A DNA stretch of 53,073 bases. Origin: Flavobacteriaceae bacterium. Lineage in GTDB: Bacteria > Bacteroidota > Bacteroidia > Flavobacteriales > Flavobacteriaceae. The notes beneath the pieces are model-generated. The model saw nothing but the letters and a program-made list of their open reading frames with translations. It had not been told where the DNA came from and ran no database searches. A program made the translations under genes and the position numbers. The stretch is from positions 1-53,073 of the forward strand of contig JAQWHT010000048.1 in NCBI GenBank assembly GCA_029249225.1. The letters run 5' to 3'. Below, piece by piece: positions 34,692 to 38,327 of the stretch (position 1 is its first letter; each line of letters begins with the position of its first letter).

Positions 34692-35903
34692 ATGTTAAAA
34701 ATTAGAGTTTTTTTACTTGCGTTTCTAATCGCATTTATGACACTTCAACGTGAGCGTTCAAAACCCATTTTAGATGAGGTAATGACAAATTCAAATGATG
34801 CTATCCAAAGGGTAGTTCAGCAGCTTGAAAAACACGAGATTCAATTACGCTTAACTCAGGTTGATTCTGGGTCCAATTCAAAAATCAATTTCCAATCCTC
34901 GTCATATCAGTTGGACGAAGAACGATATTTTTATCCTGCGAGTACTGCAAAATTACCTATTGCTGCTCTTGCACTCCAAAAAGTAAGACAGCTCAATGCT
35001 CAAGGTGTAAAAATAAATACTAATACAGCTTTTGAAATTCGAGATAAATCAGGGGAGCCTATTCAATTTAAAGATAGCACTCATCAACAAGGAAAACTTA
35101 CAATTGCTCACCTTATCAAAAAAATATTTTTGGTCAGTGACAATAACGCTTACAATTATCTATTTGATTTTTTGGGAAGGGACTATATCAATCTAGAATT
35201 GCAATCTAAGGGTTTAGAGCACACCCAAATTTTCCATAAATTCCTTTTGGGTGCAGATAATACAACAACTTGGGAATATACTTTTTTTGACTCAGAAGGC
35301 GATACGTTATATCATCAACAATCTCTTTCTTCCCAATTCAATAAACAGAATAAGCATCTAAAAGGGATAACTAAAGGCAAAGGATTTTTAAAAGAAGGTG
35401 TTTTAGTTCCTAGACCGATGGATTTTAAAGCTAAAAACAGAATTTCTCTTTTGGATCTTGAAGGGATCATGAAGCGGTTAATTTTCCCTGAAAGCTTTTC
35501 AGTAACCGAGCAATTTGGTTTGTTAAAAGAGGATTATGAATTTTTGCGTTTCTGGATGAGTAGGTCTACTTTGGAGAGTTCTTTTCCAGATTATACTGGT
35601 GATACATATTGGGATAGCTATAATAAATTTTTTATCTATGGCGATCAGAAAGGGAAAATGTCCGATCAAATTAGAATTTATAATAAAGTCGGCTATGCTT
35701 ACGGCACACTTACTGATGTCGCTTATATCCACGACCAAGAGAATGATTTGAAATTCTTCCTCACAGCAACAGTTTTAGTCAATGAAAATCAAATTTATAA
35801 TGACGATCTATATGAATTTGAATCGGTTGGAATTCCTTTTTTAGCAAATTTAGGAGCTCTTGTCTTGGAAGCGATCAGATCAGAGAAAGCTTCAGGACTC
35901 TAA
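34692..35903 (+). CDS. Class A beta-lactamase-like serine hydrolase
   Basis: 403 residues from ATG 34692. The short hydrophobic N-terminus (about 5-18) is a signal or anchor. The SxxK motif is Ser84-Lys87 (YPASTAKLPIA), SDN is 149-151 (LVSDNNAYN) and YNKVGYAYG stands at the KTG position as KVG. The protein is longer than class A lactamases (about 290 residues) because of an inserted region near 165-280. Such relatives often act on peptidoglycan or peptide substrates. It stands alone; its 3' end overlaps the convergent oxygenase gene by 12 bp. Confidence 0.78.
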   Translation: MLKIRVFLLAFLIAFMTLQRERSKPILDEVMTNSNDAIQRVVQQLEKHEIQLRLTQVDSGSNSKINFQSSSYQLDEERYFYPASTAKLPIAALALQKVRQLNAQGVKINTNTAFEIRDKSGEPIQFKDSTHQQGKLTIAHLIKKIFLVSDNNAYNYLFDFLGRDYINLELQSKGLEHTQIFHKFLLGADNTTTWEYTFFDSEGDTLYHQQSLSSQFNKQNKHLKGITKGKGFLKEGVLVPRPMDFKAKNRISLLDLEGIMKRLIFPESFSVTEQFGLLKEDYEFLRFWMSRSTLESSFPDYTGDTYWDSYNKFFIYGDQKGKMSDQIRIYNKVGYAYGTLTDVAYIHDQENDLKFFLTATVLVNENQIYNDDLYEFESVGIPFLANLGALVLEAIRSEKASGL

Positions 35904-36842
35904 AAGGCCCAAGGCAACAAGTCGCTGGTGTAAGAAGTTACCAGCAGTAATATCATTGTATTTTTTAGGATGCTCCTCATTGATAGTTTGTGGCAAACAA
36001 TTTAGAGGCATATGGGGAACAGGATGCATAAAAAAAGGAAGAGAATACCGTGCTTTACCCCAATTTTTTTCTGGAGGGTTTATTACTCGGTGAATGGTAG
36101 AGGGAAGTTTATTATTGGTCAATCTAGAGAGCATATCTCCTACGTTGATAATCAATTCATCAGTCTCTGCTATGGCATCGATCCATTCATTATTTCTATT
36201 TAACACTTGTAAGCCACTGCCTTGAGCTCCCATTAAGAGGGTTATTAAATTAATATCTCCATGAGCAGCTGCTCGTTCGGCCTCTTTTGGGGGCTTGGTG
36301 ATGGGCGGGTAATGGATGGCTCTTAAAATAGAATTACCTTCTAAGATAAATCGGTCAAAATAAGTAGCTTCAAGATTTAGATATAACGCTATAGCTTGAA
36401 GAACAACCTGTGCTGTTTTTTCAAGTCGTTTGAATACTGTGTTCCCAACGGAATTAAAAGTATTTAGTTCAGCTACATTTATATTTTCAGGATATAAGTA
36501 CTTGAGTTTAGGATCGCTGTCTAGATCTTGACCAAAATGCCAAAATTCTTTTAAATCACCTACTGTCCTTCCTTCTGCATGTTCTTTACCAAATCCAGTA
36601 TATCCTCTTTGACCGCCACCTCCCTGAACTTCATACTTGTTTTTTGTAGTTTCGGGTAAGGCAAAAAAAGCTTTGATTTCTTTGTATAATGACTCTTGAA
36701 GCACTCTATCCAAAAAGTGTCCCTTGAGTGCTAAAAATCCAATTTCTTCGAATGAACTTCCTATTTTTTGAACAAAATCTTTTTTTCGAGTATGATTATC
36801 TGAAAGAAAGTCAGTTAGATCAGCCTGGGGAATCTTTTGCAT
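35892..36842 (-). CDS. Isopenicillin N synthase-type Fe(II)/2OG oxygenase
   Basis: 316 residues. The N-terminal DIOX_N-like part (1-110) includes GFLALKGHFLD and YTGFGKEHAEG. The catalytic core has His194 and Asp196 (AAHGDINLITLL), His251 (STIHRVINPP) and Arg265-Ser267 (RYSLPFF), which bind iron and 2-oxoglutarate. It resembles the plant-type and IPNS-like oxygenases; the substrate is unknown. The start codon lies only 12 nt after a strong terminator and behind a 20-codon ORF with a Shine-Dalgarno site, so expression is probably controlled by read-through of that terminator. Confidence 0.85.
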   Translation of the reverse strand: MQKIPQADLTDFLSDNHTRKKDFVQKIGSSFEEIGFLALKGHFLDRVLQESLYKEIKAFFALPETTKNKYEVQGGGGQRGYTGFGKEHAEGRTVGDLKEFWHFGQDLDSDPKLKYLYPENINVAELNTFNSVGNTVFKRLEKTAQVVLQAIALYLNLEATYFDRFILEGNSILRAIHYPPITKPPKEAERAAAHGDINLITLLMGAQGSGLQVLNRNNEWIDAIAETDELIINVGDMLSRLTNNKLPSTIHRVINPPEKNWGKARYSLPFFMHPVPHMPLNCLPQTINEEHPKKYNDITAGNFLHQRLVALGLLES

Positions 36843-36854
36843 TTTTTAGAGTTT

Positions 36855-36882
36855 AAAAAAAGCGAACCCATCGGCTCGCTTT
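36855..36882 (-). terminator. Strong intrinsic terminator between leader ORF and oxygenase gene
   Basis: On the minus strand a 10-bp stem (AAAGCGAGCC with GGTTCGCTTT, one G-U pair) closes a 4-nt loop (GATG), and a U run follows. It starts 18 nt after the leader ORF stop and ends 12 nt before the oxygenase ATG. A terminator in this position, with the gene directly behind it, is the arrangement of an attenuator. Confidence 0.88.
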
Positions 36883-36900
36883 ATAAATAGATAAGGAATG

Positions 36901-36963
36901 TTACAGCGGTCCGATATTAGGTACCTGCCGTCTCCAATTCCTCAAATGATTATTATAAGACAT
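36901..36963 (-). CDS. 20-residue leader-type ORF with a near-perfect Shine-Dalgarno site
   Basis: The ORF encodes MSYNNHLRNWRRQVPNIGPL and a TAA. AAAGGAGG lies 6 nt upstream of the ATG (36970-36977 on the plus strand), which is exceptional in a genome where ribosome sites are mostly absent; Bacteroidota ribosomes keep the anti-SD tail sequestered by bS21, bS18 and bS6. It is followed by the terminator at 36855. The peptide has a Trp-Arg-Arg core and ends Gly-Pro-Leu-stop, a context where ribosomes can pause. It may be a regulatory leader peptide or a small expressed peptide. No family recognised. Confidence 0.65.
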   Translation of the reverse strand: MSYNNHLRNWRRQVPNIGPL

Positions 36964-37025
36964 AAGACACCTCCTTTCTAAATTTAGTTAGACTTTACTG
37001 TTGTCACAGCTTGAACTTCTCAATT

Positions 37026-37033
37026 CAAATATA
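37026..37033 (-). promoter_or_regulatory. Candidate -7 box for the leader ORF
   Basis: The minus strand reads TATATTTG, a full match to TAnnTTTG, about 60 nt before the leader ATG. I see no TTG at the expected -33 distance. The leader region would therefore start near 37020. Confidence 0.4.
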
Positions 37034-37058: not shown

Positions 37059-38327
37059 TTATTTTACAATTTTTTTCAGGGTAAGCCCTTGAACTAAAAT
37101 CGTAAACAAAACAACACCGTAGGTCAAGATTAAAATTAAATCTTTACCAGTACCAATACTGTCAGGAAGATTCAATGCCAAGGCGATACTTAATCCACCT
37201 CTCAATCCTCCCCAAGTAATAATAAGGGCTGTATTTTTTTCAAAAGTTTTTTTAATGGAGAGTATTTTGATAGGGACAAATACACCTATACCTCTTGAGA
37301 CAACCACCAAAATAATGACTAAAACAATAATAAGAATATAGCTTAAGTCAAAGTTTTGAAGGATGGGAATAATTTCCAAACCAATAAGAATAAATAAGAT
37401 AGCATTTAAGGTCTCATCAATCAAGTGCCAAAATTTATACACATAATCTCCCATTGCTTTTTGAACCCCATCGGCTTCTTTGTCTGTATCGATGTTTTGA
37501 TTTAAAAAGAGCCCCATCATAACAACACCTAACACAGCTGAGAAATGGAATATATGAGAAATAACAGGAACTAATAATACCATTGAAAGTGTAATAAGGA
37601 CTTCCAGTTCTACATGCTCGTTTTCAATATATTTAACAAGTTTTAAACCCAAATAACCCATCACAGAACCAAGAAAAATACCTCCAATGACTTCGGTTGC
37701 AAATAAAGAAGTTACACTCTGAGGGGTAATATTTTCAATGCCCTCCATTTTCATGCTTAATAAAGTCAAAAACACCACGACACCTATTCCGTCGTTAAAA
37801 AGTGATTCCCCTGCAATTCGGGTTTCTGTAACTATTGAAAGGTTCATTTTTTTAACCATTGCCAATACTGCTATAGGATCTGTTGGTGCAATAAGCGCAC
37901 CAAATAAAAGGCAGTCCACATAGGTAAGGCTTACATCACCCATGCCTAAAAAGGGTTGACTAACAAGCCAAAAAAGCCCTGTTCCAACAGCAAATGTAGA
38001 AAACACCACTCCAAAAGTCGCTAAGAGAAGGATGGTTACTTTATCTTTTAATAATTCGTGAACATTAACACTAATAGCTCCTGCAAATAATAAAAATGGG
38101 AGCATGACGTCGATCAACAAAACACTGAAATCAAATTCTTCTGTTAGCGATGTAGCAAATGAGAGAAAATCAGGTACAATTAAGCCAATAATTAAAACCC
38201 CTAAGGACAGAAATATGGCCAATACCATTAGCCCTATGGTCTGAGGGAGTTTTAAAATTCTTAAATTAATAATGGAAAACACCGATGCTAAAAGCAGCAA
38301 CAGTGCAGATAATTCGAGTAAATTCAT
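37059..38327 (-). CDS. Cation:proton antiporter, NhaP/CPA1 family
   Basis: 422 residues with about 12 membrane helices. The conserved CPA1 motif FNDGIGVVVFLTLL (about 177-190) carries the Asp used for ion exchange. A second feature is WGGLRGGLSIALAL near the C-terminus. GALIAPTDPIAVLAM (about 143-157) also matches. It exchanges Na+ or K+ for H+ across the inner membrane. No cytoplasmic regulatory tail is present. Not linked to a pathway by its neighbours. Confidence 0.88.
   Translation of the reverse strand: MNLLELSALLLLLASVFSIINLRILKLPQTIGLMVLAIFLSLGVLIIGLIVPDFLSFATSLTEEFDFSVLLIDVMLPFLLFAGAISVNVHELLKDKVTILLLATFGVVFSTFAVGTGLFWLVSQPFLGMGDVSLTYVDCLLFGALIAPTDPIAVLAMVKKMNLSIVTETRIAGESLFNDGIGVVVFLTLLSMKMEGIENITPQSVTSLFATEVIGGIFLGSVMGYLGLKLVKYIENEHVELEVLITLSMVLLVPVISHIFHFSAVLGVVMMGLFLNQNIDTDKEADGVQKAMGDYVYKFWHLIDETLNAILFILIGLEIIPILQNFDLSYILIIVLVIILVVVSRGIGVFVPIKILSIKKTFEKNTALIITWGGLRGGLSIALALNLPDSIGTGKDLILILTYGVVLFTILVQGLTLKKIVK

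Follow-up and report, generated by a model that had tools for sequence, protein, structure and literature searches.

A conserved RNA element with an extended Shine-Dalgarno sequence in the Flavobacteriaceae: a possible autonomous small RNA gene translated by ribosomes with a free 16S tail

Introduction

In the Flavobacteriales, Shine-Dalgarno (SD) control of translation has been suggested to be confined to rpsU, the gene for ribosomal protein bS21 (PMC9976891). The same study reports that ribosomes without bS21 prefer strong SDs, that the SDs of Bacteroidia rpsU genes lie between -14 and -21 kcal/mol, and that the survey behind the rpsU-only suggestion scanned annotated protein-coding genes (PMC9976891). 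Annotations of that kind may well omit a frame as short as 20 codons. A frame of this kind, led by a strong SD and followed by an intrinsic terminator and an oxygenase gene, lies on the minus strand of contig JAQWHT010000048.1 of Flavobacteriaceae bacterium (assembly GCA_029249225.1), the 53,073 nt of which are referred to below as the window. The locus raises the question of what a short, SD-led frame with its own terminator is for, and whether it serves the gene that follows it.

Results

Architecture of the locus

Re-measurement of the layout given in the initial annotation, running from the SD through the ATG, the 20 codons and the terminator to the oxygenase ATG, reproduced every distance: 18 nt separate the ORF stop from the terminator stem, and 12 nt lie between the T-run and the oxygenase ATG (36842). 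The terminator (P3) is formed by arms AAAGCGAGCC and GGTTCGCTTT, with one G-U pair and a GATG loop, the stem-loop occupying 36882-36859 and the T-run extending to 36855. The parts described at the outset are real, but the extent assigned to them was too small, for the element, running from 37033 to 36855, includes hairpin P1, another hairpin and a promoter-like site as well (Table 1). TAnnTTTG, which the promoter-like site fits, is the -7 promoter consensus of the Bacteroidota.

Table 1. Features of the element and of its neighbors, in positions of the window.
Feature	Positions	Strand	Remarks
Promoter-like -7 element TATATTTG	37026-37033	minus	fits TAnnTTTG, upstream of P1
Putative transcript start	near 37020	minus	from the position of the promoter-like site
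Hairpin P1, GCTGT-GACA-ACAGT	36997-37010	minus	compensatory changes
Extended Shine-Dalgarno TAGAAAGGAGGTGT	36967-36980	minus	complements the 16S end ACACCTCCTTTCTA
SD core AAAGGAGG	36977-36970	minus	followed by 6 nt to the ATG
Short ORF, 20 codons and stop, MSYNNHLRNWRRQVPNIGPL	36901-36963	minus	ATG 36963-36961, TAA 36903-36901
P2a 5' strand TGAGGAAT, within the ORF, fold A	36937-36944	minus	partner 36899-36892
Hairpin P2b (ACGGC...GCTGT)	36903-36931	minus	second half of the ORF through the stop codon
Post-stop strand ATTCCTTATC	36890-36899	minus	partner is P2a (fold A) or SD 36978-36972 (fold B)
Intrinsic terminator P3 and T-run	36855-36882	minus	10-bp stem, compensatory changes
2OG-Fe(II) oxygenase (IPNS-like), downstream gene in the genus	35892-36842	minus	PF14226, PF03171; outside the element
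Na+/H+ antiporter gene (nhaP-like), usual upstream neighbor	37059-38327	minus	PF00999; outside the element

The leader folds with a z-score of -3.3, and one of 200 shuffles folded equally well. Terminator P3 is absent from the list returned by a consensus scan of the locus, and no Rfam 15 family reaches its gathering score between 36600 and 37200, where the best matches score 18 bits (gathering score 75) and 11.4 bits (gathering score 60). No further exact match to the pattern of a GAUG-loop terminator occurs within the window, and a phage origin was set aside after two exact patterns gave 0 matches among viral contigs.

Conservation and distribution

The oxygenase was detected in 41 of 60 relatives, and every one of the 33 orthologous oxygenase loci of the genus whose upstream DNA is usable carries the element, with SD, ORF and terminator conserved together; alignment upstream of orthologous oxygenases was a check that the initial annotation had proposed. 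A motif scan found no element at the nine other oxygenase loci of this search, one of which is a second, 60% identical copy in a genus genome (L055), the other eight (L052, L056-L061, L064) coming from other families of the order. The alignment of genus elements (A1) comprises 31 of the 33, L039 being left out for a contig end and L051 for a leader identical to that of L049, and its SD block is almost invariant. Changes were counted by parsimony on a 28-taxon tree of the oxygenase gene, L053, L062 and L063 having been dropped for oxygenase pieces that were too short. Per site, these counts are 0 in the terminator loop, 0.54 in the SD block, 0.7-0.8 in the terminator arms and 0.93 in P1, rising to 1.8 in the post-stop stretch, 2.8 in the ORF and 4.6 between promoter and P1; the corresponding figures for the oxygenase gene itself are 2.9 for first, 1.4 for second and 7.8 for third codon positions, and 10.6 for 58 fourfold sites. 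The oxygenase matches at L038 and L041 each contain one in-frame TAA inside the matched range. Among at least 80 contig loci that carry the oxygenase, the SD and T-run layout occurs at six of those listed (L065-L070), some of which may come from organisms already represented among the genus genomes; at the other 74 listed, the 330 nt upstream contain no such layout.

An RNA model (R1), built from alignment A2, matches 34 of 38 genus genomes, each at E <= 4e-24, with a single strong copy per genome except in G118, which has two; the four genomes without a match are 56-82% complete, and the oxygenase was likewise not found in them. Strong R1 matches also occur beyond the genus among 397 genomes of the family, and a later model (R2) locates the element in 17 of these genomes, which belong to 9 of the 237 genera sampled (E 1.8e-29 to 1.2e-13), with no further family genome below 1e-4. 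Among 395 genomes sampled from the order, only the genome of the window matched at 1e-4; these large searches were samples with strict filters, which weak or rare relatives could escape. R1 matches of about 42 bits and lower, often on both strands at one place, were dropped as chance hairpins. A tblastn search of 100 family genomes with the 20-residue peptide, as the initial annotation had advised, recovered the peptide's own locus (E = 1.5e-10) and otherwise weak matches; the latter, 20 in 18 other genomes with E of 0.03 to 4.1, were not taken as homologues, and the one in G020 sits elsewhere than that genome's element. Eight close orthologues of the antiporter (71-100% identity, that of the window included) were found in 120 genomes. 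The element adjoins five of them and is absent beside three (L244, L245, L248), so that some lineages manage without it; another genome (G358) of the genus of L244 (g100) has the element.

Relation to neighboring genes

The antiporter gene lies directly upstream of the element in all 16 wider loci, and the antiporter C-terminus was found upstream of 45 of 47 elements, with P1 starting 44-67 nt past the nhaP stop codon in these 45. This regular spacing favors reading the element as merely the terminator of the antiporter operon, accompanied by a chance ORF. Such a reading is scarcely credible, given a conservation far exceeding that of a terminator and the presence of a promoter-like site of the element's own; it is already contradicted by the conserved promoter, P1 and SD, and the element persists without nhaP at L054, where promoter, element and oxygenase come after riboflavin synthase. 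The other element without an upstream nhaP match (L033) is cut by a contig end.

Downstream of the element, the oxygenase is found at 38 of the 47 loci (one scan gave 37, to which L210 is added), and among the wider loci this holds for L202, L203, L206, L210, L211, L212 and L217. Nine of the 16 wider loci have no oxygenase downstream: the next gene is convergent in five (L205, L207, L208, L209, L215), and other genes follow in L204, L213, L214 and L216. A search at E <= 1e-30 gave no oxygenase match in five element-bearing genomes that are 85-91% complete (G052, G330, G307, G065, G339) or in element-bearing G124, a genome merely 58% complete, and in G243, G236 and G409 the oxygenase is on a contig other than that of the element. 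TAnnTTTG occurs 14-17 nt upstream of P1 in 43 of 47 elements. At L203:4058-4220, a new promoter-like TATCTTTG lies between the terminator of the element and the oxygenase. On the evidence of these gene orders, the element depends on neither the oxygenase nor, in one genome, the antiporter, and with a putative promoter and a terminator of its own it has the makeup of an autonomous RNA gene.

The initial annotation had proposed a leader-peptide attenuator, in which translation of the short ORF would set terminator read-through and, through it, oxygenase expression. At genus loci the oxygenase starts 0-18 nt past the T-run, and none of 32 loci has TAnnTTTG within the final 110 nt of the element or in the gap to the oxygenase, so that some read-through into the oxygenase is probably needed in the genus. 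In the 74 element-free loci listed, by contrast, TAnnTTTG lies 5-59 nt before the oxygenase ATG in 68 (shuffles average 4), and the comparison again indicates that the genus gene probably needs transcription through the terminator. As an account of the element, however, attenuation is decidedly improbable: the oxygenase is missing downstream in more than half of the wider loci, five of them with convergent genes; the oxygenase of L203 has its own TAnnTTTG past the terminator; the ORF shows no run of one codon kind; and the single antiterminator pairing tested, described below, does not covary. Judged from the genomes compared, the attenuator fails for the family as a whole, and the view that the unit exists to set oxygenase read-through is not supported, with the element persisting where the oxygenase is missing and the antiterminator candidate lacking covariation. 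Oxygenase expression by read-through may instead be a local consequence within the genus.

RNA structure

Covariation across genera was assessed in 30 of the 47 elements, picked for diversity. P1 and P3 are each paired in 99.3% of cells, with both sides changed at three of five pairs in P1 and at five of ten in P3. P2a is paired in 85.6% of cells, with double changes at three of eight pairs, and P2b, in a single fixed register, in 71.1%, with double changes at five of nine; the sequence of the P2b stretch varies widely between genera, and a hairpin of at least four pairs is confined to it in 28 of 30 minimum-energy folds. The terminator loop reads YGATGG in 46 of 47 elements, the exception being the decayed L215. 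Such constancy of the GATG (36869-36872) over a covarying stem is more than an ordinary terminator should need. In the decayed element (L215:3985-4139), SD, P1 and terminator are damaged and the 21-codon frame is still open.

RNAalifold alone returned a fold in which the SD is buried, and single-sequence folds gave either this or another, so that both were tested for covariation. Fold A contains P2a and P2b; fold B buries the SD, pairing it with the post-stop strand and with codons 13-15. The two are of similar predicted energy, differing by at most 4 kcal/mol in 26 of 30 sequences (energies without a shuffled control). Fold A is paired in 87.9% of cells and has 70 doubly changed cells, as against 27.6 in shuffles, and fold B is paired in 96.5% and has 46, as against 14.0. 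P1 and the terminator, common to both folds, account for 44 doubly changed cells and P2 for 26. The helices proper to fold B hold two of its 46 and are otherwise almost invariant: the SD helix is paired in 96.7% of cells chiefly through invariance, with one pair double-changed, in two sequences. The alignments thus argue for covarying secondary structure in P1, P2 and P3, and weakly for the helices of fold B. In the predicted ensemble the SD core is mostly paired under either fold (mean unpaired 0.08-0.80), so that the case for an SD set free in fold A is weak.

One candidate antiterminator, pairing columns 148-155 of A1 with columns 181-188, is paired in 80.6% of cells, as against 80.4% in shuffles, and 222 of 500 shuffles were as good on cells paired and 75 of 500 on the covariation score. 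This pairing, of the P2 3' arm with the terminator 5' arm, had looked promising in a few sequences and was rejected for want of covariation. A pseudoknot between the GACA of the P1 loop and a UGUC past the SD, noticed by eye, is missing in several sequences and was likewise discarded.

The short open reading frame

The ORF starts with ATG and is open over 19-21 codons in all 47 elements, whereas stops interrupt the +2 frame in all 47 and the +1 frame in all but one. In alignment A4, gaps within the ORF are of 3 nt only, at two places, and those outside it measure 1, 2, 4, 5, 6, 7 and 12 nt. Each of the three inferred stop-codon changes replaces one stop by another, and the peptide start M[SF]Y...LRN is common within the genus. 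The constant start, the preserved frame, the gap pattern and this shared beginning favor an ordinary small-protein gene, that is, an mRNA for a peptide of 19-21 residues with a terminator that keeps it apart from its neighbors. Selection on the peptide, however, is not apparent: synonymous changes number 62, the no-selection expectation being 61.2 (P = 0.45, in a test that takes the change count of each site as given and in which RNA structure is a confounder), and purifying selection on amino acids is not detectable. The C-terminal half of the peptide diverges widely between genera, with ends such as QLF, TVF, KAS, EAF and LVI among others, yet it is in this stretch that the P2b hairpin forms, and the SD block, P1 and the terminator change less than the ORF does. 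A gene kept for its peptide is on this evidence unlikely.

Third codon positions have changed only somewhat more often than the other two, with 65 changes against 48 and 46 (28 taxa). Reconstructed ancestors contain three transient stops where 4.0 are expected, so that the absence of stops from present-day sequences is not strong evidence by itself. The sequences thus make a modest case for coding, and our reading of them is that the frame is kept for translation, with the peptide itself not under selection. Two proposals of the initial annotation fare poorly in this light. The Gly-Pro-Leu-stop ending is not conserved, which argues against ribosome stalling there, and the peptide is unlikely to be an oxygenase substrate, since it is also present where the oxygenase is missing, and selection on its amino acids is not detectable.

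Shine-Dalgarno sequence and the 16S tail

The 16S gene of the genus ends in GGCTGGAACACCTCCTTTCTAGAG (5 of 38 genus genomes; no 16S end was found in the window's own assembly). With the tail of this 16S, ACACCUCCUUUCU, the SD of the element pairs over 13 nt at -21.2 kcal/mol, in line with the early impression of an SD exceptional for the Bacteroidia, and the complementarity extends one base beyond UUUCU, into the next A of the 16S gene region. The usual 16S end is GGATCACCTCC; that of the genus (L237-L241) is GGAACACCTCC, and the altered base gives the SD of the element one extra pair. Against the same tail, the SD of the genome's own rpsU, GAAAGGAGATG (L236), pairs at -13.2 kcal/mol, just beyond the published rpsU range, which was obtained with another program. 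SD energies were computed for 11 of the 47 elements with ViennaRNA, unlike the published program, and all against the genus 16S tail, other genera included; they run from -14.0 kcal/mol, in the decayed L215, to -21.3 kcal/mol, and all 11 are stronger than the -13 kcal/mol that defines an extended SD. The core motif followed by ATG within 3-10 nt occurs 18 times in the genome, against 13 times for the reversed control, and 10 of the 18 sites fall inside open frames of at least 843 nt. The motif by itself is not clearly enriched, and the site of the element is distinguished by its length and conservation.

The genome encodes a bS21 with Tyr at position 54 and an SD-bearing rpsU. Together with the strong SD and the joint conservation of the parts, this makes ribosomes lacking bS21, which the initial annotation had named, a plausible reader of the element. 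The match to 16S rRNA is also compatible with a trans-acting small RNA that works independently of translation, in which AAAGGAGGUGU or the GAUG loop would pair with mRNAs, or the RNA would bind the 16S tail or its precursor during assembly. The promoter-like site, the terminator, the conserved motifs and loop, and the extra base of complementarity all speak for such an RNA. It leaves unexplained, however, an ORF of near-constant length with start and stop kept in 47 of 47 elements, and is for this reason judged unlikely.

Discussion

The reading that best accommodates these observations, and to which an even chance may be given, is that of an autonomous small RNA gene: its transcript, about 165 nt long, would be translated chiefly on bS21-deficient ribosomes, in which the anti-SD is free. 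Conservation, covariation in P1, P2 and the terminator, the promoter-like site, the match to 16S rRNA, the open frame and the independence from neighbors can be read directly from the genomes; that the gene is transcribed and its frame translated, how it is linked to bS21 and what its RNA does are proposed here from that pattern. In these bacteria the 16S tail would normally be held by bS21, bS18 and bS6, and the RNA would hence find its readers mainly among 30S subunits in which the anti-SD is free (bS21-deficient). In the absence of a ribosome, the SD would be partly buried through pairing with the post-stop strand. A free anti-SD could open it, and once translation reaches the stop codon, the terminating ribosome would sit over the post-stop strand and hold the SD open, the two events together constituting a self-reinforcing switch. 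The selected feature seems to be the act of translation rather than the peptide. The output would most likely be exerted in trans, by capturing, or responding to, ribosomes with a free anti-SD, for which the element would compete with rpsU, a gene with a far weaker SD in the genome of the window. In its fullest form, the proposal describes a bistable RNA sensor and sink for such ribosomes, opened mainly by bS21-deficient 30S subunits, held open by terminating ribosomes and able to out-compete rpsU; this further step is tentative and should be regarded as doubtful.

If the proposal is correct, the element represents a second target of specialized ribosomes in the Flavobacteriales, one that encodes no ribosomal protein, in an order where rpsU alone had been thought to be under such control. 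It would also offer a natural reporter for when ribosomes with a free anti-SD occur in marine flavobacteria, and would constitute a family of RNAs unmatched in Rfam 15. In the open-licence literature, no report was found of the RNA of this element or of a second extended-SD locus in the Flavobacteriales.

Several known systems share part of this architecture. Leader-peptide attenuators of the trp type combine a short ORF, RNA hairpins and an intrinsic terminator ahead of a gene; unlike them, the element has no conserved downstream gene, no covarying antiterminator (one was tested) and no run of control codons. Dual-function small RNAs join regulatory folds and a short-peptide ORF in a single RNA, and the element differs from them in lacking detectable peptide selection and in having an SD exceptional for its phylum. 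In Flavobacterium psychrophilum, where intergenic small RNA units have a median length of 176 bp, Rfp18 is reported to be a base-pairing small RNA (PMC9723704). The element resembles Rfp18 in being an apparently independent short transcription unit with a strong predicted fold, and is set apart from it, by description, through its extended SD and an ORF that has been kept open. The closest parallel is the rpsU mRNA of the Flavobacteriales, in which an SD with predicted pairing below -13 kcal/mol directly precedes the ATG in a setting where the 16S tail is otherwise occluded (PMC9976891). Unlike the rpsU mRNA, the element encodes no ribosomal protein and consists of a structured RNA that combines a frame of 19-21 codons with a terminator of its own and has a predicted alternative fold in which the SD would be buried; its SD, at -21.2 kcal/mol, is considerably stronger than the -13.2 kcal/mol of rpsU in the same genome.
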